Positions 4,683 to 60,536 of a DNA stretch of 60,536 bases are shown piece by piece. The position numbers and the translations under genes were made by a program. Where the stretch lies: the IMG/VR virus record IMGVR_UViG_3300044648_000299, positions 1-60,536 of that record. The stretch is one strand, 5' to 3'. Numbering within the stretch: the first letter of the stretch is position 1; the number at the start of each line of letters is the position of its first letter. The notes under the pieces are model-generated. The model searched no databases. It saw nothing but the letters and a program-made list of their open reading frames with translations, and was not told the origin of the DNA. The stretch is from a virus.

Positions 4683-4694
4683 CCTCGGCACGAC

Positions 4695-4722
4695 GAAGGC
4701 CCCCACCGTGGTGGGGGCCTTC
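4695..4722. terminator. Bidirectional terminator between convergent genes
   Basis: A perfect 12-bp stem (GAAGGCCCCCAC and its complement) with a 4-base loop sits between the plus-strand gene ending at 4682 and the minus-strand gene ending at 4750. Confidence 0.85.
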
Positions 4723-25052: not shown

Positions 25053-26288
25053 ATGGCGCGACCAGCCCACCCGATCGGCACCCACGGGGTCATCAACGTC
25101 CGTGCCGTCATCGACGGCGTGCCGCGCTCCCTGGCCGATGTCCCCGAAGGCGTCACCCCCACCCGCTACCGCGCATCCACCCGCTACCGCGATGCCGACG
25201 GCAAGACCCGTCCCGTCACCCGCGACGCCGCCACTCCCACCAAGGCCAAGGCCGCACTGCGCCAGGCGTGCCTCCAGCGCGGCCGGTCCCACGCCACCTA
25301 TCTGGCTGGCAATGTGCGCTTCGCCGAGATGAGCGAGCGTTACCTGGCCAAGGTCAAGGCCAAGCGGGCGGCGACCACCTACGACGTCTACGAGTCCTAC
25401 CTGCGCACCATCGTCGTGCCGGCACTCGGCAACCTGCTGCTCCACGAGGTCGACGTCGCCTGCTGTCAGGACTTCATGGACGCTCTCGAACGCCGCAAGA
25501 TGCCGGCCAACACGCGCCGTACCGTGCGCACCGTCCTGCGGGGCGTGCTCCAGCTCGCCGTGCGCGAGAAGGTGTTCGTCCACAACCCGGCCCGCGAGCT
25601 GGAGGTCATCGAAGGCGACACCGAACCGCCGGTCGCATTCACCGCAGTGGAACTCCGAGATTTTCTCGCCAAGCTGGCAGAGGACGAGGTGGCGCAGCGC
25701 ACCAACCTTGGGGACATCGTGCGCACGCTGTTCGCCACCGGCTGCCGGATCGGCGAGGTGCTGGCCCTACGTTGGTGCGACATCAACTTGACCGACGAGC
25801 CTGTGTGGGGCGAGGCAGCGAAGTGGGGGCGCCGCGAGATCCCACCTCACACGTTGTGGGTCAACGGCACCATCGTGCCGGTCAAGGGGGTTGGCGTGCG
25901 GCGCCATCCGGGCAAGACGAAGACCGCGAACCGGATGATCGGCGTGGTGGGCATGCTGGACGTGCAACTGTCGGTGCGGCGCCCGCCAGGGGCGAGCGAC
26001 CTGGAACCGGTGTTCCTGTCGGGCACAGGCGGCTGGATGCATCCGACGACGGTGCAGAAGTCGGTTCGGCGCCTGCGCGACCGCTTGGGCTACCCGGACT
26101 TCACAACGCACTGGGGCCGCAAGACGGTGGCGACGTTCCTGAACACCATGAAGCTGACGGCGCTGGAGGTCGCGGACCTGCTAGGGCACGCCGATCCCAG
26201 CATGACGCAGCGGGTGTACATGGGGCGCGGGCACGTAAGCCCAGACGTGAAGGCCGCACTCGACCGGCTGCACCAGCAGAGCGGCTGA
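25053..26288 (+). CDS. int: Tyrosine site-specific integrase
   Basis: A 411-residue recombinase. An N-terminal arm-binding domain (residues 1-80) and a SAM-like core-binding domain (about 85-175) precede the catalytic domain. Catalytic residues are visible: R232 in GCRIGE, H353 and R356 in HWGR, H379 in LLGHAD and the nucleophile Y389. ATG at 25053 follows AGGGGGC. It sits next to the tRNA-derived attP core, giving a complete integration cassette. A possible -10 TACACT lies near 25011. The terminator at 26357-26391 follows. Confidence 0.92.
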   Translation: MARPAHPIGTHGVINVRAVIDGVPRSLADVPEGVTPTRYRASTRYRDADGKTRPVTRDAATPTKAKAALRQACLQRGRSHATYLAGNVRFAEMSERYLAKVKAKRAATTYDVYESYLRTIVVPALGNLLLHEVDVACCQDFMDALERRKMPANTRRTVRTVLRGVLQLAVREKVFVHNPARELEVIEGDTEPPVAFTAVELRDFLAKLAEDEVAQRTNLGDIVRTLFATGCRIGEVLALRWCDINLTDEPVWGEAAKWGRREIPPHTLWVNGTIVPVKGVGVRRHPGKTKTANRMIGVVGMLDVQLSVRRPPGASDLEPVFLSGTGGWMHPTTVQKSVRRLRDRLGYPDFTTHWGRKTVATFLNTMKLTALEVADLLGHADPSMTQRVYMGRGHVSPDVKAALDRLHQQSG

Positions 26289-29312: not shown

Positions 29313-29672
29313 TCACACGCTCGACAGCCTCGCCGAGTCCACAGGCGGCTCCGGCGCCACGACGTTCTGCCGCACGAAGAACGCACCCAGCGCGGTCACC
29401 ACCGCCAACACCGCCACCTGCGTCGTATCCGGCACGTGCATCCCCAGCGAGATCACCAGCGCGAACACCGCCTTGATCAGCCCAGTCAGCGCCGGCAGCG
29501 CGGCATCCACCGACACCATCGCCGCCGTCGCGAACCCGCCGGCGGCCAGCAGCGCCGCGTTCACGTAGCCCTGCACCTCGGGCGTCAGGTTGAAGAACAG
29601 CGCGACCCCCTGAAACAGGGTCACCAGCATCGCGAACGCCACCGCGGGCTCACGCCCGAACACCCTGCGCAT
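29313..29672 (-). CDS. Holin-like membrane protein
   Basis: A 119-residue protein with three hydrophobic segments (about residues 12-30, 38-58 and 64-100) and a short polar C-terminus. Its ATG at 29672 overlaps the endolysin stop, the usual place for a holin in actinophages. It would open the membrane so the amidase reaches the wall. It is the last gene of the late leftward transcript. Families of small phage holins differ too much for a firm assignment by eye. Confidence 0.7.
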   Translation of the reverse strand: MRRVFGREPAVAFAMLVTLFQGVALFFNLTPEVQGYVNAALLAAGGFATAAMVSVDAALPALTGLIKAVFALVISLGMHVPDTTQVAVLAVVTALGAFFVRQNVVAPEPPVDSARLSSV

Positions 29673-30574
29673 CACGCCTCCGTCTCGGTGGTCAGCGCCG
29701 CCAGGATCGAGTCCAGCTTCGAGTCCAGCTCGGCGATCTTCGCGTTCGTGTCGGCCTGCGCCTGCACGAACTTGTCGTCCAGTTCCGCCACACGCTTCTC
29801 GGTCCACTGGCCGATGACCTCGTTCGGGACGTCCTGGCCCTTCCAGTTCGTTCCGTTGACCAGGTCGTCGACCTTGCCGCTGATCTCGTCCACGCGCTGC
29901 TCGATCGCGTTGAGCACGGCCTGCGCGGCGACGTCCGTGCCGTGGTAGTTCGTGATGCCGATGTCGCGCATGTGGTTGGGCACGTCGTCCTCCTGCTGCT
30001 GCTTGGCCCCTGAGACGAAGCTCAGGATTCGGGTCACATCAAGAGCGCCGGGATCCCAGTGGTTGTCCGGCGCCGGAAGGTGCTGGTGGCCCAGCCACCC
30101 AGAGAAGTCACGCAACCCCGCCGCAGACAGACGGATCGGCGACGAAGCCGACGCCAGCGTGATGCCGCTGCGCTCGTCCTTGAAGCCTCCGCCGATCACC
30201 CGCCGCGGGATGCCGAACGCCCGCTCCAGCGGCGCGATCACGTCCTGCGCGATGTTCCGCAGCGCCTGCTCCGACCAGCCGCGGGTCTCGCGGGCGAACC
30301 CCACCAACTCGACCTGGACCATGAAGTCGTCGTCGTTGCCGTCCATCGCCGAGTACGCGGCCCGGTCCAGCCGGACGTGCTGCACGCCGCGCCGGTTGCG
30401 CCAGTCGTAGATCAGGTGCGGCGGGTAGGGGGCGTAGGCGGACATCGCACCCGCGATCGAGCCGCCCTCGGTGGTGTGGAGGCAGCCCTTCGGGTTGTGC
30501 GTGTACTGGTAGGGCTTGCCGCCCAGGCCGCGGTACTCGTGCCGTTCGTAGCCCGGCAGCCATGCGTCGACCAT
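29672..30574 (-). CDS. Endolysin, N-acetylmuramoyl-L-alanine amidase-like
   Basis: A 300-residue enzyme. The N-terminal 180 residues carry amidase_2-type zinc ligands: the His in KGCLHTTEGGS near residue 33 and the C-terminal HWDPGALD near 172, with the fold marks ... HLIYDWRNRRGVQHV and FMVQVELVG. A linker (SGAKQQQEDDVPNHMRDIG) leads to a C-terminal coiled coil (residues about 220-295), unusual for a wall-binding domain; it may form oligomers. It cuts the amide bond between muramic acid and the stem peptide at lysis. Confidence 0.85.
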   Translation of the reverse strand: MVDAWLPGYERHEYRGLGGKPYQYTHNPKGCLHTTEGGSIAGAMSAYAPYPPHLIYDWRNRRGVQHVRLDRAAYSAMDGNDDDFMVQVELVGFARETRGWSEQALRNIAQDVIAPLERAFGIPRRVIGGGFKDERSGITLASASSPIRLSAAGLRDFSGWLGHQHLPAPDNHWDPGALDVTRILSFVSGAKQQQEDDVPNHMRDIGITNYHGTDVAAQAVLNAIEQRVDEISGKVDDLVNGTNWKGQDVPNEVIGQWTEKRVAELDDKFVQAQADTNAKIAELDSKLDSILAALTTETEA

Positions 30575-30577
30575 GTG

Positions 30578-31270
30578 TCAGCTCCCTCCTCTGAGGGTGA
30601 TGTCCGCCAGTGCCCTGCCGGGCATCAGGCAGTCCAGATCGGTTGCCTGCGGACCACCCGCAGGACTGGTCACGCCGGGCACCTGGCCGGTCGTCGAGTA
30701 CTGGTGCAGCACGACGCGCTCCGGCTCGTACCAGGTGCGGCCCGCCCACTCCTCCGCCGGCGTGCCGGCCGGGCGGGCGTAGCGCTCGGAGTGGCCGACC
30801 CAGCAGCGCACCCACTCCGGCCACGAGGTCGTCCCGCCGAGCAGACCGCCGAAGTAGGAGCCGGAGCTGTAGACGAGCAGCGGGAGGCCGCACAGGTCCC
30901 GGTAGGCGGCCAAGAACTCCCGCGTCCACGTCGGCCAGTCGACGCGCGCGTCTGCCGCCCTGTCCCCGGTCGGCTCGATGTCGATCGCAGGCCACAACCG
31001 CCCCGGCGACGACAACCCGAGGTGTGCGAGCAGGCCCACGAACCGGCGGGCCTCCGTCGCCGGCGACCACCGCGGCGGGTTCGCACGCAGGTAGCCGCCC
31101 AACAGCCGCCCCGTGCGCGAACCCTCACGAACGTTGAGCTCGGCCTGGTTGTCGATCTGCTGCTCGCGCCAGTCCAGCATCCCGATCAGCGCGAACTCCC
31201 GCTCCATCGGAACCGCATCCCAGTCGACGCGCTGGAAGCGCGCCACATCCACGCCACGAATCACGCGCAC
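30578..31270 (-). CDS. GH25-like lysozyme (second lysin or virion hydrolase)
   Basis: A 230-residue protein with glycoside-hydrolase-25 features: the RGVDVARFQ start with a catalytic-type Asp, PAIDIEPTG (D-x-E pair) near residue 93, PLLVYSSGSYF, and the C-terminal HQYSTTGQVPG ... DLDCLMPG motif. It would cut the glycan strand, complementing the amidase encoded 3 bases downstream. Two GTG starts are possible; 31264 has the better GAGG spacing. Two lysins in tandem are common in actinophages. Confidence 0.8.
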   Translation of the reverse strand: MRVIRGVDVARFQRVDWDAVPMEREFALIGMLDWREQQIDNQAELNVREGSRTGRLLGGYLRANPPRWSPATEARRFVGLLAHLGLSSPGRLWPAIDIEPTGDRAADARVDWPTWTREFLAAYRDLCGLPLLVYSSGSYFGGLLGGTTSWPEWVRCWVGHSERYARPAGTPAEEWAGRTWYEPERVVLHQYSTTGQVPGVTSPAGGPQATDLDCLMPGRALADITLRGGS

Positions 31271-36715: not shown

Positions 36716-39700
36716 CTACAGAGTGCGCAGCTGCCACGCCTGCTGGGCGGTCGTGACCTGACCGATCTCGTAGGCCGTCTGGTCGTTGCGCACCACGTAG
36801 GTGTTGTTGATCTGCGGTGCCAGGCCCGTCGCCGAAGTCACCGCCGAAGCGCCGGCGTTGGCGAACCCGCCCACCGCGAACCGGCGCGCAACCTCGAAAC
36901 CCATCCGTCTCGCGGTCTCCATCAGCAGGCTCACCGACCGCTGCGACCGGTTGATCGGGATGTACGCCTCGTCGTCCACCAGTCGGTCCCCGACGATCCG
37001 CCATGTGTTCGGCGGCACGATCGTCGCCACCCCGCCGCGCATCGGTGTGAGCCGGTGCACCCCGCCCGCCGCGTACGCCGCGGCGAACAGGTTGCCGTCG
37101 TGGGAGTAGGCCGCCTGACCTGGCTTCGGGGCCCCTGCCCCGGTGCCAGGATCGTGGTAGACGATGTTGACCGTCTTGGTGGCCGGCGTAGCCAGGAACG
37201 CGGCCAGCTCGTTGCGCGCCCGGTCGGAGTTCGCTGTGATCGTCACGTTGTTCGGCGTGGTCGTCACCGTGTAGCCCAGGTCGATGAGCTTGGCTTTCGC
37301 CTCGTCCGACAGCGACCGGACCGTGATCGGCTTGTCCGGCGGCACCCGGTCCACCAGTGCCTTCAGCACGATCAGCTCTTGCTGCGTGTCCGACATGCCC
37401 GGTGCCTGGATTAGCGTCGACAAGGTCGACGGGATCAGTTCGTACCGGTCGGCCAGCATCTCTGCCTGCTCGGACGTGAGCCCGAGCTGAGCGGCCTGCG
37501 CCACGAACGCGTCCCGTGCGGACGCCGCCGCTGACGTGGCCTTCGCCAGCGCTGACGGCACCGACTCGCCCTGAGCGATAGCCATGTCGTAGGTCTTCTG
37601 CGCCACGTCCGCCGTGCCCGCCGAAATGTCCTGAAGTGACTCGAACAGGGTGCGGCCGTTCGCGACCGTCGTGTTGATCGACCCGTCAGCACGGATCAGG
37701 GCGTCGCCCCAGCCCTTGGTCTTGTCGACGTTGTCGCCGAACGCCTCCCCCAGACGGGCGAGCTGCTCGTTCAACTTCGACTGCGCCGCCTCCAACGTGA
37801 TCTGCCCACCCGACAGGGCATCCATCGCGTCCTTCAACGCCCGCGCCTTCTCATCCGCCGACGCAGTGCTGTCGGCCAGCACCTCCATCGCCGCACCGAA
37901 CGACCGGCCCGCGTCCGTGGCGTCCACCATCGACGCCGACCCCGACTTCAACGCCGCTTCCAACTCGGCGTTCTTCTGCTGCGCCGCGGTGTACTCCGGC
38001 AGCAGACCGGACAGCTGCTCCCGCAGCTCCTGCGCCTTGTCGGCCATCGGGTTCTGCCCGGCGACCTGCCCCTCCAACTGCCCCTGGCCTTCGATGGCCT
38101 TCAGGTAGGAGTCGATCGCGCCGTTGACCTGCCCCAGCGCGTCCCGATTGCCCAGGTAGGCGTCCGTCAGCACGTCAATCGGGATGCGCAGGTCACGAGC
38201 CAGATCAGCCGCACCCTCGTCCTGGAGTCGCTTCGTGGCCATCATGCGGATGTTCTCGGTGATGGCCCCGTTGGAATCCCGCAGCGCTGACGCGAGGCTG
38301 TCGACCGCAGAGCGGTGCCGGGCAGCGTCCTGCGCGGCCTCCTGCTGGCTGGCGCCCAGCAGCGACAGGCCGATCGCGGCACCCGCGATGGCGATGCCGA
38401 ACGGGCCGCCGAGCGCGGCGACGAGGCCGCTGGCCCCGAGGCGAAGCGCAGTCCCGCCGGCCGCGGCCGCGCCTGCGGCCGTACCGAACCGGGTGGCACC
38501 CGCAGACGCCTGGTCGAACGAGCTCGCCATCGCTGAGAGCGCCGGAGACCGCTCCACCAGCGTGCCCAGCGCGGCGGACATGCGGCCGATCGGCTCGCCC
38601 GCCGCCGCAGCACCGGCACGGATCGCCGTGGCCTGATCGCCGAACTCTCGTGCCGCCGCGACCGCCGGGACGGTGCTCGTGCGGTAGGCGGCCATCGCCG
38701 AACCGAGACGGCCGATCTCCTCGCCGTTCTGCGCCGCCAACTGCCGCTGAACTGCCATTTCGCCGCTGAACTGCCTCAGCCCCGACAAGGCGGTCGTGTT
38801 GCCCAGCGCCTGCTGTGCGACACGGAACGCCACCAGCGCGATGACCGCGGTCTGCACCGGGCCGGGCAGCTCGGAGAAGCCCTGCACCAGGGCGCCCAAG
38901 AGCTGCCCGATCGGCACCAGGATCGACGACGCCAACTTCAGCACGTCCCCGGCGACCCCGACAGCAGCGCCGAACGCGCCCACCACGCCCGCGCCGTCGC
39001 CTGCCTCGCGGACCACCGCAGCCACACCGGTCGCGACCGGGCGCACCGCGGCCACCGTGTTGTCCAGAACGTCGGTGAAGTCGTCGAACAACTCGATCGA
39101 GGTGTTGATCAGCTCGTTGAGAGGACCGACCCCTGCACGCGCCAGCGGCGCCAAGATGTCCCGTGCCGCATCCGCCACGACAGCCCCGCGGGAACGGATC
39201 GCCTCCGCCAGCCGCGGCCCGTACACCTCGGCCACGGCGACACCGGTCGCCAAGCCCTTCTCGACCGTCGAACCGAAGTCGCCCACGAACGACGCCGCGG
39301 CCAGGACCAGCCGCTCCAGGTAAGGGGCGATCGACTCGTAGATCCCCAACCCCGCGTCCTCGGCCTGCGAGCGCAGCTTGTCCAGCGCCCCGCCGAGACC
39401 CTGCGTCTTCGCCGCCGCCACATCAGCGGCACCGCCCTGCCGGTTGACGGCAACAGCCATCTCGTCGAACGCCGACGCGCCACCGGACGCCAGGGCGACG
39501 ATCGCGGACAGGGGTTCGCGACCGAACGCTGTCGCCGCCGCCGACGCGAACTGCTCGTCGGTCATCCGGCCCTGCGCCGCAGTCAGCTGCTCGATGACCG
39601 TGCGCAGACCGACGAATCGGCCCTGCGAGTCGAACGCGACCACGCCGAGCTCGGTCAGCGCCGCCGCTGCGGGCTTCGACGGCGCCGCCAGCGACGCGAG

Positions 39701-40384
39701 CATCCCCCGCAGCGCCGTACCAGCACTGTCGGCCTGGATACCGTTGTTAGCCAGCAGACCGACAGCCGTCGCGGTGTCCTGGATCGAAATCCCGACACTG
39801 GCGGCAACCGGGCCGACGTACTTCAACGCCAGCGCCACGTCCGTGATCGACCCGGACGCGGCGTTCGCAGTGTTGGCCAGCGTGTCCGCCACCAGCGTGG
39901 CGTCCGACGCCTGCAACCCGAACTGATTGATGGCCGCCGACTGGATCTCCGCCGCCGCAGCGCCCTCGATCTGCGCCGCCGCCGCCAGCTGGATCGTGCC
40001 GCGGGCCGCCTCCATCGACTCCGCCAGCGTGAGGCCGCCCTTGGTGAGCTCCAGCATCACCGCCGCGGCGTCCGCACCCGACGTCGCCGGCAGCGACAGG
40101 TCCGAGCCCAGTGCGCGAGCGGCGTTGCCGACCGCGACCATCTGCGCCCCGGTCGCACCGGACACGGCTTGCAGTTCGTTGAGGGTCGACGTGTAGTCGA
40201 TGCCGAGCTTGATGGCCGCGCCGATCCCGACCGACGCGACACCGATGCCGGCGGCGACCGCCACACCGATCGCCCGCCCGGCGATCCCGGCCACGCCGAC
40301 CGATGAACGCAGCCCCGACTCCAACTGCCGCGGGAAGCCGCGGACGTCGGGCTCTACCGGGATGCGGACGACGCCACCGGGCAT
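36716..40384 (-). CDS. Tape measure protein
   Basis: A 1222-residue protein, the longest of the window. A phage TP901-type tape-measure core lies near residues 60-340 (LNELQAVSGATGAQM, GTALRGMLASLAAPSK, SAVAALASGG-like segments), with Ala/Gly-rich helices and several hydrophobic stretches at about 30-60 and 600-680. The N-terminus (VVRIPVEPDVRGFPRQLESGL) is common in actinophages. Its length sets tail length; about 1.5 Angstrom per residue would give a tail near 180 nm. ATG at 40384 follows the chaperone genes. Confidence 0.92.
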   Translation of the reverse strand: MPGGVVRIPVEPDVRGFPRQLESGLRSSVGVAGIAGRAIGVAVAAGIGVASVGIGAAIKLGIDYTSTLNELQAVSGATGAQMVAVGNAARALGSDLSLPATSGADAAAVMLELTKGGLTLAESMEAARGTIQLAAAAQIEGAAAAEIQSAAINQFGLQASDATLVADTLANTANAASGSITDVALALKYVGPVAASVGISIQDTATAVGLLANNGIQADSAGTALRGMLASLAAPSKPAAAALTELGVVAFDSQGRFVGLRTVIEQLTAAQGRMTDEQFASAAATAFGREPLSAIVALASGGASAFDEMAVAVNRQGGAADVAAAKTQGLGGALDKLRSQAEDAGLGIYESIAPYLERLVLAAASFVGDFGSTVEKGLATGVAVAEVYGPRLAEAIRSRGAVVADAARDILAPLARAGVGPLNELINTSIELFDDFTDVLDNTVAAVRPVATGVAAVVREAGDGAGVVGAFGAAVGVAGDVLKLASSILVPIGQLLGALVQGFSELPGPVQTAVIALVAFRVAQQALGNTTALSGLRQFSGEMAVQRQLAAQNGEEIGRLGSAMAAYRTSTVPAVAAAREFGDQATAIRAGAAAAGEPIGRMSAALGTLVERSPALSAMASSFDQASAGATRFGTAAGAAAAGGTALRLGASGLVAALGGPFGIAIAGAAIGLSLLGASQQEAAQDAARHRSAVDSLASALRDSNGAITENIRMMATKRLQDEGAADLARDLRIPIDVLTDAYLGNRDALGQVNGAIDSYLKAIEGQGQLEGQVAGQNPMADKAQELREQLSGLLPEYTAAQQKNAELEAALKSGSASMVDATDAGRSFGAAMEVLADSTASADEKARALKDAMDALSGGQITLEAAQSKLNEQLARLGEAFGDNVDKTKGWGDALIRADGSINTTVANGRTLFESLQDISAGTADVAQKTYDMAIAQGESVPSALAKATSAAASARDAFVAQAAQLGLTSEQAEMLADRYELIPSTLSTLIQAPGMSDTQQELIVLKALVDRVPPDKPITVRSLSDEAKAKLIDLGYTVTTTPNNVTITANSDRARNELAAFLATPATKTVNIVYHDPGTGAGAPKPGQAAYSHDGNLFAAAYAAGGVHRLTPMRGGVATIVPPNTWRIVGDRLVDDEAYIPINRSQRSVSLLMETARRMGFEVARRFAVGGFANAGASAVTSATGLAPQINNTYVVRNDQTAYEIGQVTTAQQAWQLRTL

Positions 40385-43791: not shown

Positions 43792-44073
43792 TCACCCCTT
43801 CGCGCTGTCGACCAGGGCGATCACGTCGTCCCTGCTCGCATCGTCGGGCACCACGATGTCGAGACCCTCGGCGTACGCCTTCCACGCCTCCAGCCCCGAC
43901 CCCTTGCCGGACCGCGGCGGCTCCTCCGACTCGCCTTCCGACGACTCCGCCACCTCGCCAGCAACCCACGCCTTCGGGTTCGTGATCCGGCCCGCCACAT
44001 CCGACGGCACCTCGTCCTCCGGCCCGAACACCCGCCCGTCCACGTGCACGAACCCCGCCAGCCGCCGCATCAC
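43792..44073 (-). CDS. Head-associated protein with C-terminal LEM/HeH-like domain
   Basis: A 93-residue protein. The N-terminal 35 residues (VHVDGRVFGPEDEVPSDVAGRITNPKAW) are a short beta element common in actinophage head proteins. After an acidic Ser/Glu linker, the last 35 residues (LEAWKAYAEGLDIVVPDDASRDDVIALVDSA) form a helix-extension-helix motif. It overlaps the capsid gene stop by 4 bases. Likely a small head fibre or decoration piece. Confidence 0.65.
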   Translation of the reverse strand: MMRRLAGFVHVDGRVFGPEDEVPSDVAGRITNPKAWVAGEVAESSEGESEEPPRSGKGSGLEAWKAYAEGLDIVVPDDASRDDVIALVDSAKG

Positions 44074-45086
44074 AGCACGTCCGCGACGAACGACAGGTCC
44101 GGGTCACCCAGGATCGGCAGAGCGATCGCCGACCCGATCGTGAACACCCGGATCGGCGTGGTCTTCTGCTTGAACGCGCCCACCACCAGCCCCGGCAGAT
44201 CAGCGCCACCGAAGCCGTACTCCGGCTCCTGCGCCTCCAGCGTCGTGCCGTACAGCGTCGCTCCCAACGCGTTGCCCCGCGGCGGCAGCAGCAGCACCTT
44301 GTCCGCCGCGATGTAGCGCTGCACCGTGCCAGCCCGCCGCGCCTTCGCGTCGTACACCGTGATCGGCGGCAGGTCGAAGTCCGCCAGCACCGTGTTCAGC
44401 TGCGTCACCGTCACCTGAGGCGCGGTGGCCGCGAGCGGGAACACCTGCCCCTGGACCTCGGCGTTGCGCAGCAGGTGCCCGCGGGCCTGGAGAGACATCA
44501 GGATCGCGCCGGGGCGCTGACCGTTGGTCTCCGCGTAGGTGTCCGACCACGCTTGCAGGTCGCTGATCGGCGTCGAGGTGGCGTGATCGGACCACGCCAC
44601 GGCCGCGGTCACGCTGTGCGTGCCGGACCGGGCGAAGTCGACCGTGGCCTGCACGCCGCGTTCGTTGAGCGTCACCGTCGCCGAGACCAGGGCCTCCGCA
44701 CGCGCGTACTCCATGCGGATGTCGATCTGCTTGGCGATGCGCGCCGCGTCCCGCAGCAGCAGGTTCCGGATCTCCTCGCCCGCGTTGCGCAGGCGCAGGT
44801 TGTTGTACTCGTCCAGCACGTACTGCTGGCCGATCGGGGGCAGCTCACCGGTCACCCGGCTGATGCCCTCGCGGGCGCCGAAGCCCGGCTCGGCGTCGTA
44901 GGCGCGGAACTCCGCGGCCTCCAGCAGCCCACCGCCACCGCGGTTGAAGCGGTAGACCAGGTCGTTGACCGGCTGGTAGGGGAACCAGTCGGCCAGGGAC
45001 AGTTCGTTCTCCGGCCGGTCTTGCAGTGCCGCACGGGCGTAGCCGCTCAGTTCGGGGGGAGTGACGTACTCGTCGTAGATGTCCAT
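44070..45086 (-). CDS. Major capsid protein (phage capsid E-like)
   Basis: A 338-residue protein with the gpE-family order: N-terminal arm (YVTPPELSGYARAALQDRPENELSL), E-loop/P-domain with LRLRNAGEEIRNLLLRDAARIAKQIDIRMEYARAEAL, A-domain with TPISDLQAWSDTYAETNGQRPGAILMS, and the C-terminal VVGAFKQKTTPIRVFTIGSAIALPILGDPDL. No protease-cleaved delta domain is seen; the separate scaffold gene (45509) fits that. ATG at 45086. It should be the most abundant virion protein with the major tail protein. Confidence 0.9.
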   Translation of the reverse strand: MDIYDEYVTPPELSGYARAALQDRPENELSLADWFPYQPVNDLVYRFNRGGGGLLEAAEFRAYDAEPGFGAREGISRVTGELPPIGQQYVLDEYNNLRLRNAGEEIRNLLLRDAARIAKQIDIRMEYARAEALVSATVTLNERGVQATVDFARSGTHSVTAAVAWSDHATSTPISDLQAWSDTYAETNGQRPGAILMSLQARGHLLRNAEVQGQVFPLAATAPQVTVTQLNTVLADFDLPPITVYDAKARRAGTVQRYIAADKVLLLPPRGNALGATLYGTTLEAQEPEYGFGGADLPGLVVGAFKQKTTPIRVFTIGSAIALPILGDPDLSFVADVL

Positions 45087-46168: not shown

Positions 46169-47146
46169 TCAGAGCAGATAGCCGAACCGCCTGAGCTGCC
46201 GGAGCACCTCGGCGGCGTCCCACCCGGCCAACTCGGCCTGGCGGAAGATCTCGTCCGGCATCAGCCGGGGTGTGCGGGCGTTCGTGTACCGGCCCGTCCT
46301 GGTTACGCCCTCAGAGGCGAGGCGCTGACCGGCCAGCCCGCGGACCGTGGTCCCGGTCGTGGTGGCCTGCACCTGCTGCCCGTAGGCGGTCACCGTGGTC
46401 ATGCCCTGCTGGGCGTTGACGACCTGGCTCATGTCCGCGCCTAGTCGGATCGCCTCAGCACCGGCCTCGGTGAAAATCCGGTCCTGCTCCTCCGTAGAGA
46501 GCGACCGGAAGTAGTCCTCTGGCCGTGTCGTCCAGTCGCCGGAGTCCTCGGCAGCCGGGATGTGCAGGCAGTCGCAGTTTGGATGGCGCTTGAACGCCTT
46601 CAGGCGGTAGTAGCGTCGCCCGGCAAGGATTGCGCACCGCCCACACGACGGATGCTTCAGCATCCGCACGTAGTTCTTCGCGCTTCGCCGGGCCTGCATC
46701 CCGGTCTGCACCGCTGACCGGCCGATGTCTCGCACTCCAGCCGCCGTGACCGACTGCGCCACGAACGCGAACTGCGACAGCATCTGGGACTGCGACAAGC
46801 CGCGCGTGGTCACCGAGTTCGGCGCGTACACGAGGTTGAGCAGCCACGACCCGCCACCGTCGGTCAGGTCCGCGAACGCCTGTGGGTTGACCGCAGCCAC
46901 CGCACCGGGGTCGGCACCCTGGGCGTCCAGCACCTCGTCCAGGTAGCCGTCCGCGAGCGTCGCCGCGGCCACCTGGAGCGCGAGGAGCTGGGCTCCCATG
47001 TCGGCCACCACGTCACGCCACACCTCCGGACGCCCCCGAGCCACCCGCAAGCCCTGCGTGACCAGGGCCAACGCGGAGAGGGTGAGCTGCTTCTGTGCCG
47101 CGGAGTGAGCGAGAGCGACCTCAGCCACCCGCGGCGGCAGCACCAC
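46169..47146 (-). CDS. MuF-like minor head protein
   Basis: A 325-residue protein that follows the portal gene, overlapping it by 26 bases. Helical N-terminal region with Ala/Leu repeats, then HPSCGRCAILAGRRYYRLKAFKRHPNCDCLHIP, the Cys/His cluster of VG15/MuF-type head proteins that attach to the portal inside the capsid. The C-terminus has IFRQAELAGWDAAEVLRQLRRFGYL. It is probably ejected with DNA or helps portal incorporation. GTG start at 47146. Confidence 0.78.
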   Translation of the reverse strand: MVLPPRVAEVALAHSAAQKQLTLSALALVTQGLRVARGRPEVWRDVVADMGAQLLALQVAAATLADGYLDEVLDAQGADPGAVAAVNPQAFADLTDGGGSWLLNLVYAPNSVTTRGLSQSQMLSQFAFVAQSVTAAGVRDIGRSAVQTGMQARRSAKNYVRMLKHPSCGRCAILAGRRYYRLKAFKRHPNCDCLHIPAAEDSGDWTTRPEDYFRSLSTEEQDRIFTEAGAEAIRLGADMSQVVNAQQGMTTVTAYGQQVQATTTGTTVRGLAGQRLASEGVTRTGRYTNARTPRLMPDEIFRQAELAGWDAAEVLRQLRRFGYLL

Positions 47147-48545
47147 CCACCCCCGTCAACGCCGACCCCGTCGTTGCCGCGAGGCGCACGTTCTGGGCGA
47201 TCGCCACCGGGTTGTACTGGCGGGCTCTGCGTTCCCGCATACCGCGCTTCTCCTGCTCGGAGTAGCCGACGTCAATCCATCCCTGCTCGTCGTCGATCAG
47301 GCCCGACTGAATGCCCTTCACGGCAGCGTCCATCTTCGACGCCAGAGTCGGGGTCGCGGCGTTGCGCCACTTCGACTCCAGCCCTGCGATCTCAGCCGGG
47401 TCGTTGCCGAGGATCGTCCACACGATGCGCTGCGCCCGCTCCCACGCGCCGCCCATCCACAGCTGTCGCTTCTCGGTGCGGCGCACCAGCCGCTCCAGGG
47501 AGAAGTTGATGGACTCCGCCGACGGCGGGTTGTCGCTGGAGTAGCCCATGTAGTTCGGGGGCAGCCCGTACACCGACGCGGCGAGCGTGGCCAGCATCTT
47601 CACCGACTCGTGGAAGTTCCGCAGGTCAGAGGCGCTGAACTGGCCCAGCTTCACCTCGGGCGCTTCCGACATGCCGTCGTCGCTCTTGGCGTGCGGGACC
47701 GCCCACACATCGCCCAGGGCGACCTTCCACAGCGGGATCTCCTGGCCGTTCTCGTCGACGAAGTCCTTCTGAGAGACGCCCACCGCGTACTTGCGCGGCA
47801 CGGCGTGGTGCTCGCCGGCGGCCATCATGTTCGTCGCGAACTGGTTCGCGCCGTCCACCAGCGGCTTGATTGCCACCAAGTCGCTACGGCCGGTGCCGCG
47901 GCGTGGCTTGTTCAGCATCGGCACGATCGGGATGCTCGGCAGCGTCGGGTCCTGCGCGATCCGGTCCGCCCAATCACCCAGCTTCGTCTCGGAGACGATC
48001 TCGCCGTTCTCCAGCTCGAACGCCCGGCCAGGCAGGTACAGCGCACCGAACGTGTCCACCGACCCCGGCGCGTCGTCCTGCCACACCCGGACACCCGCGA
48101 TCGGCTGCCGGGTCCGCGGGTCGATCTCCACCGCGACCTGGTCGCAGTACTCCGTGGTCACCATCGGATAGGCGCCATCACCAGGGCCGACCATGATGAA
48201 GTGCTGCCCCGACGTCATCGCCGCCAGGTGCGCCTCGCTGGAGTACTCGTCCAGGTCGTTCGCCTGCCACGTGGCCACCAGCTCGTCGACCTGCGTGTCC
48301 CGGTCGGCCATGAGGAACGTCTCCAGGATGAGGCGTTCCTCGACCGACTCCAGCACCAGCTCAGGCCACGAGATCATCAACGCCGGGAACCGCTCGCCCT
48401 GCTCCTGGAGGATCTTCGCCACGTAGTACAGCGGCTGCTCCAGGTCGACGTACTGCCACCAGTTCACCGCCGCGGTGCGCTGAAGCATCCGCCGCACGTT
48501 CAGGCGGTAGTACCACTCCTCGGGCTTCAGGTCCGACAGCTTCAC
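47121..48545 (-). CDS. Portal protein (SPP1 gp6-like)
   Basis: A 474-residue protein. It opens with KLSDLKPEEWYYRLNVRRMLQR, has the stem region with NEKPRRGTGRSDLVAIKPLVDGAN-like wording (PMLNKPRRGTGRSDLV), the FHESVKMLATLAASVYGLPPNYMGYSSDNPPSAESINF motif typical of Gp6-family portals and a C-terminal basic crown. GTG at 48545 follows AGGAGGTCC. It forms the dodecamer through which the terminase pumps DNA. Confidence 0.92.
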   Translation of the reverse strand: MKLSDLKPEEWYYRLNVRRMLQRTAAVNWWQYVDLEQPLYYVAKILQEQGERFPALMISWPELVLESVEERLILETFLMADRDTQVDELVATWQANDLDEYSSEAHLAAMTSGQHFIMVGPGDGAYPMVTTEYCDQVAVEIDPRTRQPIAGVRVWQDDAPGSVDTFGALYLPGRAFELENGEIVSETKLGDWADRIAQDPTLPSIPIVPMLNKPRRGTGRSDLVAIKPLVDGANQFATNMMAAGEHHAVPRKYAVGVSQKDFVDENGQEIPLWKVALGDVWAVPHAKSDDGMSEAPEVKLGQFSASDLRNFHESVKMLATLAASVYGLPPNYMGYSSDNPPSAESINFSLERLVRRTEKRQLWMGGAWERAQRIVWTILGNDPAEIAGLESKWRNAATPTLASKMDAAVKGIQSGLIDDEQGWIDVGYSEQEKRGMRERRARQYNPVAIAQNVRLAATTGSALTGVGGAAAAGG

Positions 48546-48554: not shown

Positions 48555-50225
48555 CTACCTGCGAGAAGAGACCACCACGCGCCGCTGCGAGGTGTCGTCG
48601 TCGGTCGCGCCGGCCAGACGCGCATCGGACCGGGCCTCGTGCGCGAGGACCGAGCACACCGCAAGGTCGATCTTCTGGTGCTCCGAGGGCTTGCCCAGGC
48701 CGTACCGCTCACCCGGCTTCGCCACCCTCCGGGCGTTGCCCACGTGGATACCGGTGACCTTGCAGTCGTCGTGGGTGATGACCAGAGGCAGGTCAGCGAC
48801 GAACCGCTTCAGCGACTCGTGCATCTGCACCGGCCGGTTCGTCTCCCACTTGATCACCCGCTTCTCGCCGTACTGCAACTGCCAGCCCTCGATCTCCGTC
48901 TTCCACTCGCGCACGTCGCAGTACATCCGCAGCACGCGGTAGGTCGACATCAGGTGGTCCAGGGCCGCCGCGACCTCCAGCCGGGGGATCTCGCTCGAGA
49001 ACTTGGTCGGATCCCAGATCGTCGGCTGGTCGTCCGGGCCGAACGTCGGCGTGAACTGGAAGCCGTCCAGCGTCTCTGCCCGGATCGCCGTCCAGTCCCC
49101 GGTATCGCTGCCGTCGAAGCCCAGGCAGATCTTCGTCTTCGCCGGGACGATCCGCGGCGGCAACCCCAGAGCCCTGCGGCCCCGGCTGTCCCACAGCCCG
49201 TCCTTGAGCCAAGACCCAGTACCCGACGTGCAGCGATTGCCGTAGAACCGCTCCGCCTGCGCCGGGTCCTTCTCCGCGATCTCCGCCGCCTCGGCCTCGA
49301 TCGCGTCCAGGTCGATGTGCCCGCCACGCTCCCGCAGCGAGTTGCCGTACACGTAGCGGTGGATCTGCGCCCGCTCCCGCTTGTTCCTGTACGACAGGTG
49401 CTTCGGCGCCTGCGGGTGATACCGGAACACGTCCTTCGACGTCGACTCCGCCGTCTGCTGCGCGACGCTGTTCTCCGCCGGGTCGTAGGCGTTCGTCGTC
49501 TCCTCGGCCCGGCCACCCATGCCCGACAAGCCGCGGCGCTGCGTCGACGCCACCTTGTCCATCTTGTTCGACACCGTCCAGATGCCGACCTCGTCCTGCG
49601 GCACGAACGTCACACGCTGCCCCAGCCGGGACTGCGCCGACGACGTCACCGTGTCGATCCGCCCGCCGTTCGGGAGTCGGATGAACTCCTCACCCGTGCG
49701 CGGGATGACCTCCGACAGCGGACCCTTCTCGATCATCGGCCGCAGCGCGTCGTAGACGTTGTCCGTCTGCTCCTCGGAGAACGCCGTGATCTGGATCAGC
49801 GGAGTCGGCCACGGCATCCCCATCGGCTCGCCCGGCTCGTACTCGTAGATCCAGCCACAACCGCAACCGTGGTGGCGGCAGTCGTAGACCTCCCCGCCCT
49901 TCGCCCATCCGGCGAACAGCGCAGGACCCACACCCTCCAGGCACACGTGCGCCGCCGTGTACGGCCCCTTGCCCGCCTTCTGCGGTAGCACGATCTGCGA
50001 CCGCCGGTAGTAGAACGCCGGCGCCAGGATCGGATTGGACGGCACCCACAGCGCCGTGGGCTTGACCCGGTAGAAGTTCGCCAAGCACCAGGCCTGCCAG
50101 TCGATCAGCTCGAACGGCTCGCCTTGCCGGAACCCGTCCGGGATGACGCAGTGGTGCTCCGTCCAGTCCAGTGCGACGAACAGCGTGGGGAAGTCGACGA
50201 CGAACGGATCAGGCGCCGTCGCCAT
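48555..50225 (-). CDS. terL: Terminase large subunit
   Basis: A 556-residue packaging motor. ATPase: a Walker A variant QKAGKGP at about 82-88, Walker B VTFVPQDE at 205-212 with catalytic E212. Nuclease: aspartates in CLGFDGSDTGDW, the MYCDVREWKTEIEGW region and HQKIDLAVCSVL near the C-terminus. A Cys/His insert (CRHHGCGCGW, 116-125) inside the ATPase part looks like a zinc site and is common in actinophage terminases of this type. ATG at 50225 overlaps the small-subunit gene by 17 bases. Headful packaging would fit the circular assembly, but this is not shown. Confidence 0.93.
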   Translation of the reverse strand: MATAPDPFVVDFPTLFVALDWTEHHCVIPDGFRQGEPFELIDWQAWCLANFYRVKPTALWVPSNPILAPAFYYRRSQIVLPQKAGKGPYTAAHVCLEGVGPALFAGWAKGGEVYDCRHHGCGCGWIYEYEPGEPMGMPWPTPLIQITAFSEEQTDNVYDALRPMIEKGPLSEVIPRTGEEFIRLPNGGRIDTVTSSAQSRLGQRVTFVPQDEVGIWTVSNKMDKVASTQRRGLSGMGGRAEETTNAYDPAENSVAQQTAESTSKDVFRYHPQAPKHLSYRNKRERAQIHRYVYGNSLRERGGHIDLDAIEAEAAEIAEKDPAQAERFYGNRCTSGTGSWLKDGLWDSRGRRALGLPPRIVPAKTKICLGFDGSDTGDWTAIRAETLDGFQFTPTFGPDDQPTIWDPTKFSSEIPRLEVAAALDHLMSTYRVLRMYCDVREWKTEIEGWQLQYGEKRVIKWETNRPVQMHESLKRFVADLPLVITHDDCKVTGIHVGNARRVAKPGERYGLGKPSEHQKIDLAVCSVLAHEARSDARLAGATDDDTSQRRVVVSSRR

Positions 50226-53232: not shown

Positions 53233-53814
53233 TCAGTGCGCAAGTGGACGCGGTCGGGGCGTGTTGGCCTTGGTGTTCAGGTAGGCGCGCTTGACGGCGT
53301 TGTGGCGGGCGTCGGCGAGGGCGTTGTGGTGGCCGTCGGGCTGCTGCGGGAGTTCGTCCCACGGCACGCCGAGTCGGAGCGCTTCCTGCTGGATGTCGCA
53401 CGTGAACATCGGTATCCCCTCGGGGAGGTCGATCATGCGTCCCCAGAGCTGGCAGAGGGCGACGTGGTCGTACGCGCCGTAGTCAGCCCACAGGACCGGT
53501 CGCCCGGCGGCGAGGAGGAACGCCTCGACCTCGGCGGCGATCCGGGCGCGCGGCTTCACCAACCCGCTGTTGTAGTCGAACAACCAGCTCTGGGGCATGT
53601 GGTTGTTCCAGTCGCCGTACGGCTTCGGCAGCGACGGGACGACGTTGTCCATGAGCCACTGGTTCTTGCGGATGCGGCGCTCCAGCTTGCCCCTGGTCGC
53701 GTCGCGGCTGATGGCGTAGTACTCGCGGCCGTCGTCGGCGACGATCCCGATCGAGATCAGCTCGATGGTGCGGCCGTCCTCCAGGAACTCCAGGTCGTAG
53801 TCGTACTCGGTCAC
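53233..53814 (-). CDS. DEDD-type 3'-5' exoribonuclease-like protein (Rv2179c family)
   Basis: A 193-residue protein starting YDYDLEFLEDGRTIELISIGIVADDGREYYAIS, where the early Asp/Glu replaces the usual D-x-E of motif I (FLE/D-x-E), followed by VLWADYGAYDHVALCQ (motif II) and the late HNALADARHNAVKRAYL (motif III H-x4-D). This is the signature of the Rv2179c/polyadenylate-specific exoribonuclease group of the RNase H fold. GTG at 53814, coupled to the HTH gene. A phage copy could degrade or edit host RNA after infection. Confidence 0.85.
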   Translation of the reverse strand: MTEYDYDLEFLEDGRTIELISIGIVADDGREYYAISRDATRGKLERRIRKNQWLMDNVVPSLPKPYGDWNNHMPQSWLFDYNSGLVKPRARIAAEVEAFLLAAGRPVLWADYGAYDHVALCQLWGRMIDLPEGIPMFTCDIQQEALRLGVPWDELPQQPDGHHNALADARHNAVKRAYLNTKANTPRPRPLAH

Positions 53815-57660: not shown

Positions 57661-57747
57661 ATGCCGAGGAAGTGCAAGGACTGCAAGGACCAGGGCGGCT
57701 GCTCGGACGGCTGCTGCCCGTGCGAGACCTGCGGCAAGACGGGCTGA
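57661..57747 (+). CDS. Cysteine-rich micro-protein, 28 residues
   Basis: A 28-codon frame with seven cysteines (positions 5, 8, 14, 18, 19, 21, 24) plus Lys/Asp/Gly, giving CxxC, CC and CxxC groups for one or two metal sites. ATG at 57661 starts the rightward block. The cysteine density and constant reading frame argue for a real metal-binding peptide. No family is assigned. Confidence 0.65.
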   Translation: MPRKCKDCKDQGGCSDGCCPCETCGKTG

Positions 57748-57752
57748 CCACG

Positions 57753-57920
57753 ATGCGCATCTACACCGACCCCGCCGAGGCGGCCCGGTACGCCGACCTC
57801 GCACAGGAGCAGCTCCAGCGGGAGATCCGCCACTCCGTCGAGACCACCGATCCCGCCAGGCGCGACGAACACCTCGACTTCGCGGACTGGTTCGCCGAGT
57901 TCGCCGCCGACCACCGCTGA
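57753..57920 (+). CDS. Hypothetical protein, 55 residues
   Basis: ATG at 57753, five bases after the micro-protein stop. Acidic and helical (IYTDPAEAARYADLAQEQLQREIRH and HLDFADWFAEFAADH). Unassigned small cytosolic protein of the transfer block. Confidence 0.6.
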   Translation: MRIYTDPAEAARYADLAQEQLQREIRHSVETTDPARRDEHLDFADWFAEFAADHR

Positions 57921-57938
57921 TCCGAGAGGACACCCCGC

Positions 57939-58244
57939 ATGACCACCGCCCAGCAGGTCCACCAGACACCTGAGACGGCGCTGCGCGACGTCCGCCGACA
58001 GATCAACGACACCTGGCAGGAACTGCACCGCGACGGCGTCGACTGGAACCCCACCGCAATGCGGCTGCTCAGCCTCCACACCGACTACCTCGCCGCCGCC
58101 TACCAGATGGACCGGATGACCGAGATCCGCGAGGGCTTCGGGTTCTGCCGCGACACCGAACGCGGTGCCGAGCAGTTCGTGAAGGCCCAGCGCGAGCAGC
58201 TGAGCCTCGTGTCCGCGTCGGTCCGGACGCAGGCCAGCCGATGA
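57939..58244 (+). CDS. Hypothetical helical protein, 101 residues
   Basis: ATG behind GAGAGGAC. Helical throughout (LRDVRRQINDTWQELHRDGVDWNPTAMRLLSLHTDYL ... GAEQFVKAQREQLSLVSASVR). One cysteine. The stop overlaps the next ATG. No family was recognised. Confidence 0.6.
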   Translation: MTTAQQVHQTPETALRDVRRQINDTWQELHRDGVDWNPTAMRLLSLHTDYLAAAYQMDRMTEIREGFGFCRDTERGAEQFVKAQREQLSLVSASVRTQASR

Positions 58245-58393
58245 GCATGACGCAGAGGATCGCCGACCTCGCCAAGACCAACCCTCAGGCGGCGCGCACC
58301 CAGTACGACCGGCTCGACCCCGACGAGAAGCACCGCGTCCGCGACGAGACCGACCACGTCGCCCGCAGAGTGTTCGGCGACGAGCCGAAATGA
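58241..58393 (+). CDS. Hypothetical protein, 50 residues
   Basis: ATG overlapping the previous stop (ATGA). A short basic-acidic helical peptide (TQRIADLAKTNPQAARTQYDRLDPDEKHRVRDE). Followed by a hairpin. Unassigned. Confidence 0.55.
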   Translation: MSMTQRIADLAKTNPQAARTQYDRLDPDEKHRVRDETDHVARRVFGDEPK

Positions 58394-58397
58394 GCCC

Positions 58398-58441
58398 CCG
58401 GTGGGCGGCCTGCTGACCTGGACGTCCGGACCGCCCACCGG
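58398..58441 (+). terminator. Hairpin inside the transfer block
   Basis: Perfect 11-bp arms CCGGTGGGCGG (58398-58408) and 58431-58441 lie directly after a stop and before the next ribosome site. It may attenuate the membrane-protein genes downstream. Confidence 0.6.
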
Positions 58442-58476
58442 GTTCCACCACCCACCTAGCAGGAGGGAGGCAGGGC

Positions 58477-58545
58477 ATGTCTACCACCACCGACGTCAGC
58501 GACATCGAGGCACTGGCGGACGCCGTCGGCGTACTGCGCCGCTGA
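58477..58545 (+). CDS. Micro-gene, 22 residues
   Basis: A 22-codon frame with the best ribosome site of the region (AGGAGGGAGG, 8 bases before the ATG). Peptide STTTDVSDIEALADAVGVLRR. Because such a site precedes so short a frame, it may be a leader peptide that controls the lipoprotein and membrane genes, or a true micropeptide. Confidence 0.5.
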   Translation: MSTTTDVSDIEALADAVGVLRR

Positions 58546-58597
58546 GCCCGCCTCCCCGGTCCCCACCGCCCCCGACCGCACCGACCTGGAGGCCACG

Positions 58598-58861
58598 ATG
58601 CCCGCCCTCCGCACCACCGCCCTCGGCCTGCTCCTCGCCGCCGTCACCACCGGGACGCAGTCCTGCGAGCAGACAGGCGACGCGACCACACCGGTCGTCG
58701 ACGGGCCGTACCTGGAGATGGCCTACACCTGCGACGAGCACGGCGGCCTGATCTGGGTGGAGCCGGACACGCCGCAGACCCGCGAGCAGGCGGTCGTCAA
58801 GTGCGGCCGGCTCGACCGCGAGCTGGACGCCTTGCCCTGGCCCGACGGCATCAACCCCTGA
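58598..58861 (+). CDS. Putative lipoprotein, 87 residues
   Basis: ATG at 58598. N-terminal hydrophobic segment with a lipobox-like end (LLLAAVTTGTQSC, Cys23), so it would be lipid-anchored outside. The mature part is acidic with two further cysteines (C45, C69) likely bridged. In conjugative elements, small lipoproteins can prevent entry of the same element; that is one testable idea. Coupled by position to the DUF2637-like gene. Confidence 0.65.
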   Translation: MPALRTTALGLLLAAVTTGTQSCEQTGDATTPVVDGPYLEMAYTCDEHGGLIWVEPDTPQTREQAVVKCGRLDRELDALPWPDGINP

Positions 58862-58888
58862 CCCACCCCGTCCCGGAAGGACATCTTC

Positions 58889-59653
58889 GTGACCAGCCAG
58901 GCTGACCGCGACCGGCAGACCCTCAGCGCCATCTCCACGGGCGTGTGGGTCGTGGCGTTCGTCGTCATGGCCGTCTCGGCCTCCACCGCAGCGGACCTGA
59001 TGTCCAAGCACGGGATGCAGTGGCGGGCCGGTCTCGCGATCGGCATCGCCACCGACATCGGCCTGTGCATCGGCCTGCTCGGCGACCAGACCCTTGCCCG
59101 CCTGGGCACGAAGTCGGCGTGGTCGACCCGGTTGCGCTGGGTGGGGCTGGGCATGAGCTTGGTGTTCAACTGCACCGACGCCATCGGAGTTGGAGACCAG
59201 CTCGGGGCGGTGCTCCACGGGTCACCGGTGCTGCTGTTGCTCGTGCTCACCGAAGCCGCTCAGGACTACCGCATGAAGTTGGCGCACGTCACCGAGGCCG
59301 CCAAGCCAGCGCCAGTGGGCGTTCAGCGTCAACCTGCTGCTGTTCCTCATGGGGAGCGCCCGTTACAGCCGCCGAGCCCGCCCGCGAAGACCGTGCCGTC
59401 GAAGCCGGTTGCGCCCGCGATCGAGCAGGCCCGCCCCTCGAACGTCACCCCCATACGGGCCACTGGCACTAAGACGCAGAAACAGTTGGTCGACGAATGG
59501 TTCGCCGCCGAAGTCGGCCGCCGCGGCGGTGACCCCGATGCCGTGACGGGCCCGATGCTCGCCGCCCAGTTCAGCGCTCCGCACCTCGCCAAGAAGATCA
59601 CCGATGTCCGGAAGCGGTACCTCGCCGCGAACCCCACCGCAGTCAACCAGTGA
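58889..59653 (+). CDS. DUF2637/Spd-like multi-pass membrane protein
   Basis: A 254-residue protein, GTG at 58889. Four hydrophobic segments (about residues 14-34, 45-65, 88-108, 112-128), with ADLMSKHGMQWRAGLAIGIATDIGL resembling the DUF2637 membrane proteins of actinomycete plasmids. A Pro-rich linker then leads to a cytosolic C-terminal helical part (LVDEWFAAEVGRRGGDPD ... PHLAKKITDVRKRYL) that looks like a winged helix. In such plasmids, Spd membrane proteins help spread DNA between hyphal compartments. The family call is tentative. Confidence 0.6.
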   Translation: MTSQADRDRQTLSAISTGVWVVAFVVMAVSASTAADLMSKHGMQWRAGLAIGIATDIGLCIGLLGDQTLARLGTKSAWSTRLRWVGLGMSLVFNCTDAIGVGDQLGAVLHGSPVLLLLVLTEAAQDYRMKLAHVTEAAKPAPVGVQRQPAAVPHGERPLQPPSPPAKTVPSKPVAPAIEQARPSNVTPIRATGTKTQKQLVDEWFAAEVGRRGGDPDAVTGPMLAAQFSAPHLAKKITDVRKRYLAANPTAVNQ

Positions 59654-59681
59654 GCCCCCACCAGGGCGGAAGGACCTGACC

Positions 59682-60116
59682 ATGAACGGCACCATCGTCA
59701 GCACGAGCGTCGTGGGGTTCGTGCTCCTCACCCTCGGCGCGATCATGATGTGGAAGAAGAAGTCCCTGAAGGTCGTCACCTGGCTGTGGTTCCTCGGCGG
59801 CCTCACCGTCTCCGGTGGCCTCATCGCCACCCTTCAGGACGTCCTGCGCCAGGCCGGAGCTGCCGGCGGGAGCGCGCTGGGCATCGGCGTGAACGTCGTC
59901 CTCGGCGTCGTGGGCCTGGGGGCGCTGTACGTGGCGTGGCTGGAAGCGCCGCTGAAGAAGGGCAAGGGCACCCCGAAGGCTTCCACCCCGTTCCTGGCGC
60001 TGGTCGCCCCGATCCTGATCCTGACCACGACCGGGACCCTGGCCGGGTGGTTCGGGGCGCTGGGTGCGTTCGTCGGCCGCCTCGGCGGGCCGCTGGCCAC
60101 CTTCTTCGGGGCGTGA
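59682..60116 (+). CDS. Four-pass membrane protein
   Basis: A 144-residue protein from an ATG at 59682 behind GGAAGGACC. Four hydrophobic segments (about residues 8-24, 33-50, 65-85, 103-140) with a basic cytoplasmic loop (KKGKGTPK). No cysteine or catalytic motif. It is placed between the DUF2637-like and the joint-spanning membrane proteins, so it may form the transfer membrane complex with them. Confidence 0.65.
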   Translation: MNGTIVSTSVVGFVLLTLGAIMMWKKKSLKVVTWLWFLGGLTVSGGLIATLQDVLRQAGAAGGSALGIGVNVVLGVVGLGALYVAWLEAPLKKGKGTPKASTPFLALVAPILILTTTGTLAGWFGALGAFVGRLGGPLATFFGA

Positions 60117-60120
60117 CGAC

Positions 60121-60536
60121 ATGGGCCTGTTCCTGCTCGTGCTGCTCGTCGCCTGGTTCATCGTCTACCGCACTGGCGCCGACGCGACGTCGATCGCACG
60201 CAGCGGACTGGCCTGGTGCGCGGATCGGCTCGGTGGTGTCGCCGATCGGCTGGCCTCGCGTTCCCCGCTCCTGGCCGGCCTCCTCGGCAAGGGCGCGCGC
60301 GCCGTCGCCGCCAAGCTCAGGCCGCGACACACGCCGATGCAGCCGCGCACCTCCGATGGCCAGGCTCTCCTCAACGCGGCCGGTGGACTGACCGCAGTCG
60401 GGGTGGTGCTGGTGCTGGTGTGGGTGCGGCTGGTCGCGGTCGACGCGGTGTCGGCGACCCGCGGCGCGTACGAGCGGTACTACGTGCCCGGTGAGCCCCG
60501 CTGGCGGCACGTGATGTTCGGGTGGTCGCGGTGGCC
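60121..60536 (+). CDS. Two-pass membrane protein, N-terminal part (gene spans the joint)
   Basis: The ATG at 60121 starts 4 bases after the upstream stop. The frame stays open to the end of the window and continues at position 3 of the left end, ending at 269; the full protein has 185 residues. First membrane segment at residues about 3-20 (LFLLVLLVAWFIVY), a long basic cytosolic part, second segment at about 88-105. Unassigned; see the entry at 1-269. Confidence 0.75.
   Translation, partial: MGLFLLVLLVAWFIVYRTGADATSIARSGLAWCADRLGGVADRLASRSPLLAGLLGKGARAVAAKLRPRHTPMQPRTSDGQALLNAAGGLTAVGVVLVLVWVRLVAVDAVSATRGAYERYYVPGEPRWRHVMFGWSRW
60410..60536. repeat. Terminal direct repeat, right copy
   Basis: Identical to positions 1-127. 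Position 60410 is equivalent to position 1, so the non-redundant circle is 60409 bp. Confidence 0.9.

Follow-up and report, generated by a model that had tools for sequence, protein, structure and literature searches.

The question raised by the virus contig IMGVR_UViG_3300044648_000299 (60,536 bp; hereafter the window, meaning the whole stretch of DNA analysed) is what a block of genes resembling the DNA-transfer apparatus of actinomycete plasmids does on a phage genome. The first and last 127 bp of the contig were identical (an exact direct repeat, which looks like an assembler overlap), giving a circle of 60,409 bp. Genes were predicted from codon usage. Most of them ran leftward; one rightward operon began near 57.7 kb, crossed the joint and ended at 4.68 kb. 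Judging from the sequence, we consider it somewhat probable that this rightward block is a TraB-like double-stranded DNA (dsDNA) transfer or spread module of plasmid origin carried by a temperate siphovirus. The part of this reading that is directly supported comprises the gene content of the block, its conservation, the clade that its ATPase forms with plasmid translocases, the winged helix of that ATPase, and the conserved repeat arrays.

The translocase gene of the block was located as follows.

690–2948, + strand: membrane-anchored translocase (ATPase) of the FtsK/HerA superfamily with a C-terminal winged helix, 752 aa

The ATPase had a Walker A motif (GTGMGKSS), a Walker-B-like motif (YIEECDQVF) and a hydrophobic N terminus, and AlphaFold2 modelled its last 95 residues as a winged helix (predicted local distance difference test score, pLDDT, 88.8; helix-strand-helix-helix-strand-strand-helix). 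The membrane anchor and winged helix that an earlier interpretation made from the letters alone (the sequence-only reading) had assigned to this protein were thus borne out, and this combination matches the TraB-type architecture.

The nearest non-phage relatives of the ATPase were translocases on actinomycete plasmids, with seven relatives on plasmids of Amycolatopsis, Saccharothrix, Pseudonocardia, Nocardiopsis, Micromonospora and Verrucosispora. A terminase was undetectable in all five of the relative-bearing plasmids tested; the same search found it in the phage contigs G018 and G019 (described below) and in the plasmid-prophage pGBA129-24a. An SPP1-type portal was sought in pAS20800, CP091383 and pLS2-1 and was not found. 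Profile comparison of the ATPase with the plasmid group gave 4e-43. The merged profile matched the pZL12-type translocases at 3e-13 and pIJ101 TraB at 2.6e-9 over 268 columns, the latter alignment beginning upstream of the motor, and the reversed controls gave nothing. A phmmer search of the PDB gave noise only, tblastn of the phage collection with the ATPase gave no relative, and single-sequence translocase scans of viral and genome contigs gave nothing.

In the motor-domain tree, four phages and five plasmid proteins formed a nine-row clade (100/99), which stood apart from the chromosomal FtsK, EccC-like and pZL12-type groups. Grouping with chromosomal FtsK, which the sequence-only reading had named as evidence against its proposal, was not seen in this tree; neither was membership of the classical TraB clade.

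The block was also found in other phages. It was colinear over its whole length in three viral contigs (G018, G019 and G020), with about 30–80% protein identity, so that the conservation which the sequence-only reading had proposed to look for in related prophages was found in an integrated prophage (G018) and two further contigs. G018 had head and tail genes in common with the window (tape measure 54%), G019 had its own portal, terminase and tape measure, and G020, circular by a 99-bp end repeat, carried a terminase and portal from other families. The block was therefore better conserved than the virion modules. The translocase family was rare, with strong matches (E<1e-60) coming from two genomes among 390 Pseudonocardiaceae; the remainder of the 396-genome phylum sample gave none.

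Gene calling confirmed the gene order proposed for the rightward block. The operon started with three small genes, followed by a short secreted-looking protein and g103. The genes other than that of the ATPase were the following.

58598–58861, + strand: g102, small secreted-looking protein with a weak lipobox (gene call)
58889–59653, + strand: g103, membrane protein with three transmembrane (TM) segments and a conserved C-terminal domain (TM prediction and ortholog comparison)
59682–60116, + strand: g104, four-TM membrane protein kept in three other phages
60121–60536 and 1–269 across the joint (60410–60536 repeats 1–127), + strand: g105, two-TM membrane protein
266–583, + strand: g0, 105-aa WXG100/PPE-like small protein with a conserved W-[SG]-G
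3278–3799, + strand: g2, one-TM protein with a conserved Cys/His-rich C-terminal domain (CPYCAGTRSRxWR)
3951–4682 (start approximate), + strand: YdjM-family membrane metal-dependent hydrolase (PF04307, E=4e-23)

Among these, g0, g2 and YdjM, as well as the two repeat arrays described below, were absent from the sequence-only reading. The two further membrane proteins that it had listed were predicted as g104 and g105. Its putative lipoprotein, g102, had only a poor lipobox; the protein was weakly similar to a stretch of the non-phage plasmid pAS20800 (37% over 49 aa). For g103, described as a DUF2637/Spd-like protein, the domain search detected no DUF2637 in the protein encoded by the window. 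The gene at the corresponding position in G018 encoded a clear DUF2637 protein (PF10935, E=3e-41), orthologous to g103, and the C-terminal domain was common to both, which lends some support to a putative DUF2637-type assignment of g103. A relative of g104 (E=3e-6) was present on the Pseudonocardia plasmid pLS2-1 (L003), which also carries the translocase.

The gene g0 was situated directly upstream of the FtsK-superfamily ATPase in four of the four phages, a pairing that recalls type VII secretion. An EccC-like ATPase might accordingly export the WXG-like g0 as a type-VII-like mini-system, for example in surface modification or exclusion; EccC motor profiles aligned well with the merged profile (3.5e-12), and the block holds several membrane partners. 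We regard this explanation as very improbable. A single motor with a winged helix and DNA repeat arrays suits DNA rather than protein as the substrate, the PPE match of g0 (E=0.008) was under the cut-off, and the EccC-like rows fell outside the ATPase clade, so that the multi-motor ATPase grouping with EccC that marks a type VII system was not found.

The DNA 3' of the translocase gene contained two arrays of short repeats.

2982–3011, + strand: inverted repeat with 13-bp arms, terminator-like, just 3' of the translocase stop
3019–3221: array A, six TGTTGCAG octamers in both orientations
3095–3111 and 3173–3189: copies of ACCTGCG[AG]AAA
3507–4551: array B, 27 copies of TGGGGA, 21 of them being TGGGGA[TC]C

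The interval 2949–3277, directly 3' of the translocase, held six of the eight window copies of TGTTGCAG, for which the whole-window expectation was 1.06. At the equivalent place G020 had eight copies of TGTTGCAG, and G019 had ten copies of ATGCAAG, which occurred nowhere else in that contig; the array A word was thus phage-specific. According to domain-wise identities, the window and G020, which have the array A motif in common, were closest in the winged helix, which fits co-variation of winged helix and array A. They were closest in the motor too, so this was not accepted as independent evidence. Other repeats were noted in corresponding regions. ACCTGCG[AG]AAA, often in inverted pairs, was present in the equivalent intergenic region of all four phages (L091, L092, L093 and the window). 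In pAS20800 (L001 8440–8560), an inverted repeat of four TGCGAGG words lay directly 3' of the related plasmid translocase. In pLS2-1 (L003 1–2200), an element with a homologous translocase, all 19 copies of GGTCCGGAC in the 21-kb locus were confined to 2.2 kb. The GGTCCGGAC repeats of pLS2-1 and the TraB recognition sequence (TRS) of pSVH1 have CCGGA in common.

Array B was larger and strongly polarised. The region 3500–4700 contained 21 of the 26 TGGGGA[TC]C copies of the circle and 27 of its 49 TGGGGA copies, oriented + in the 3' end of g2, − in the intergenic gap and + in YdjM; four tandem 8-bp AGATCCCC units lay in the gap at about 3903–3936. The same three-part polarity recurred at the equivalent place in G018, G019 and G020, where it formed the densest cluster of each record. 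The 148-bp gap held nine copies vs at most one in 5,000 shuffles. With 2,000 synonymous-codon shuffles as the control, the YdjM copy number lay above the shuffled values in three phages (the window, G018 and G020) and above nearly all of them in G019 (p<=0.001). No such excess was found in YdjM of pAS20800 and L094, records with no such translocase or only a distant one, and the arrays were missing around YdjM homologues unaccompanied by this translocase. The excess in the phages, set against these two records, indicates that selection acts on the DNA word inside the coding sequence. When viral contigs were scanned for GATCCCC triplets, the densest among the matches listed, besides G019, were low-complexity repeats in unrelated contigs. 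In pGBA129-24a, a stretch rich in CCGTCC was considered as a second array and rejected, being of low complexity within a long open frame.

TraB acts with 8-bp repeats, which in pSVH1 are GACCCGGA in clusters of four (PMC5133688; also PMC4170104). Because TraB loads on such repeats, arrays A and B are candidate transfer loci. Either is a candidate partner of the winged helix, array A lying in the classical position and array B being more conserved. The resemblance to actinomycete dsDNA-transfer modules put forward in the sequence-only reading was upheld by these candidate cis-acting octamer arrays and by the closest non-phage relatives, which are on plasmids lacking a detectable terminase. In the proposed mechanism, the ATPase would form a hexamer anchored in the membrane, and its Spd-like partners would be the DUF2637-type protein and the other small membrane proteins. 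The C-terminal winged helix would load on the short repeats beside its own gene, possibly array A, the polarised array B or both. A pore would presumably be formed, and the ATPase may then pump the excised circular phage genome into mating partners or adjacent compartments, across septa or the membranes of hyphae.

The remainder of the circle encoded a phage, and the head, tail, packaging, lysis and integration genes that the sequence-only reading had described were identified, together with replication initiation.

16865–17851, − strand: phage-type replication initiation protein
25053–26288, + strand: tyrosine integrase
29672–31264, − strand: lysis genes (amidase-like, 29672–30574, Amidase_2 just under the cut-off; GH25 lysozyme, 30578–31264)
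36716–40384, − strand: tail tape measure protein
44070–45086, − strand: major capsid protein (Phage_cap_E)
47121–48545, − strand: portal protein
48555–50225, − strand: terminase large subunit

A head protease was also among the leftward genes. Terminase, portal, major capsid protein, tape measure, lysin and integrase were all found, which places the element among temperate siphoviruses (Caudoviricetes). ARAGORN and Rfam gave no match on the window. A DNA search of Pseudonocardiaceae for the attachment site of the window returned only short partial matches across many genomes, which were judged uninformative. The leftward early genes also included a PAPS-reductase-domain protein (11388–12422; PF01507, E=3e-11) with a possible DNA-modification or sulfur-related role, and an Rv2179c-like 3'-5' exoribonuclease (PF16473) was encoded at 53233–53814.

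On such a genome the block could serve the phage cycle itself: the ATPase would move or protect phage DNA in infection or block superinfection, and the arrays would be operators or a replication origin. Hiyaa, Keanu and other actinophages do have FtsK-like proteins, and repeat arrays can serve in both capacities. The position of array B makes this improbable, since the array is located inside the operon and at its 3' end, is partly coding and cannot be a promoter operator for downstream genes; origin and promoter operator were both judged less likely for it. The phage replication initiator is encoded elsewhere (16865–17851), and the extremes of cumulative GC skew, near 24 kb and 50 kb, lay away from 3.5–4.7 kb.

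Segregation or maintenance has to be weighed as well. The translocase and arrays would here act on a replicating or extrachromosomal phage genome, clearing it from mycelial septa or distributing it across them, with no transfer to other individuals. Such a role is mechanically near that of FtsK/SpoIIIE, whose directional loading words the polarised octamer arrays recall, and intramycelial spreading has itself been seen as a stability function (PMC4170104). The window genes scanned gave no recognisable ParA/ParB, which also agrees with such a role; they gave no plasmid Rep either (some small open reading frames lay outside the scan). Plasmid replication or partition genes, which would mark a phage-plasmid, were thus not found in the scanned genes, and circularity alone is insufficient for that class. 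The insertion of G018 bears on the same explanation. This contig was an integrated prophage in an 8,248,144-bp chromosome, with 41-bp repeats on its flanks.

G092:C1, 6594123 and 6660070: attL/attR of G018, 41 bp, one copy at the end of a tRNA-Leu(CAA) gene

While it sits in the tRNA-Leu gene, G018 has no need of partition, yet it retains the whole module. The other members of the clade are plasmid-borne, and at least one of these plasmids, pAS20800, encodes a ParAB of its own. Segregation as the function of the block is therefore rather unlikely.

Several observations weigh against a TraB-like transfer module. PF01580 (FtsK_SpoIIIE) gave no match in the ATPase by Pfam search, and pIJ101 Tra matches it at 9e-10. 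In the tree, pIJ101 TraB was not joined to the nine-row clade and was placed weakly beside FtsK. The term FtsK/TraB-type translocase used in the sequence-only reading consequently holds as remote homology to TraB and not as membership of the TraB clade. At the motor level, the merged profile aligned to FtsK (2e-8) as well as to EccC. The winged-helix model had no significant PDB match, and the full-length AlphaFold2 model of the translocase with four sequences was unusable (pLDDT 39.4). The octamer arrays are present and conserved, yet neither motif is GACCCGGA, the known TRS of pSVH1. The literature examined contained no demonstration of DNA transfer by any member of this exact translocase clade.

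The transfer reading can be extended. A temperate actinophage lineage with partly unrelated capsids would share a complete contact-dependent dsDNA transfer module, the loading site of the module would be the polarised TGGGGAYC array within the coding regions of YdjM and the adjacent gene, and one genome would spread both as virions and from cell to cell. We put this fuller version forward tentatively and regard it as possible rather than probable.

Comparison with known systems showed partial likeness in each case. The TraB/cis-acting locus of transfer (clt)-TRS/Spd system of pIJ101 and pSVH1 also has a membrane-anchored motor with a C-terminal winged helix, adjoining small membrane proteins and 8-bp repeats near the translocase gene; the window differs in its clade, the missing PF01580 match, other repeat words, a much larger number of repeats, and a polarised array in coding sequence. 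Actinomycete integrative and conjugative elements have a single FtsK-like translocase, a circular excised form and a tyrosine integrase acting on a tRNA gene (tRNA integration being seen in the sister G018 only), whereas the window has full head, tail and packaging genes and a phage-type replication initiator.

According to the papers that cite it (PMC3583192, PMC5431353, PMC4487206), pZL12, published in 2010, is a Streptomyces plasmid-phage with a tra locus. pZL12/PhiZL12 (NC_013420) is likewise a circular actinomycete element with phage genes. Its 725-aa translocase (gp071), which membrane-type genes adjoin, also misses PF01580. However, pZL12 is 90 kb in size and has ParAB, its translocase belongs to another clade, and no such repeat array was seen in its 50–90 kb region. 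The Actinoalloteichus plasmid-prophage pGBA129-24a (NZ_CP016078) is circular and 59.4 kb in size; its head and tail genes are homologous to those of the window, and it encodes a four-TM protein, YdjM and a membrane ATPase of 752 aa. This ATPase falls in the pZL12-like group by profile, and array B is missing. The ATPase gene of pGBA129-24a (L009 6568–8826) adjoins the YdjM gene and is annotated only as hypothetical. FtsK-like DNA translocases are also carried by Thermobifida phage P1312 and Streptomyces phages Hiyaa, Galactica, Keanu and Spocter, but they are from another group (the comparison was limited to the translocase). The Streptococcus pyogenes prophage Phi1207.3 has been reported as capable of conjugal transfer (PMC4260502); it comes from an unrelated host and its likeness to the window is that of a prophage with conjugal transfer, the TraB-like module standing outside the comparison.

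The suggestion in the sequence-only reading of a distinct kind of hybrid element is thus not supported, being preceded by pZL12, by Phi1207.3 and by actinophages with annotated FtsK-like translocases. The concept of a hybrid phage and transfer element is already known; in the open-access papers searched, no account was found of this translocase clade in phages, of a block shared by different kinds of virion or of the octamer arrays.

If the module works, spread would not be limited to virions: neither lysis nor a receptor would be needed for a lysogen to seed a mating partner or a mycelial colony. This would be relevant to prophage persistence in multicellular actinomycetes, as well as to the exchange of genes between phages and conjugative elements. 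The loading site can be approached biochemically, and directly, through the conserved octamer arrays, which also reveal selection on DNA words within coding sequence.

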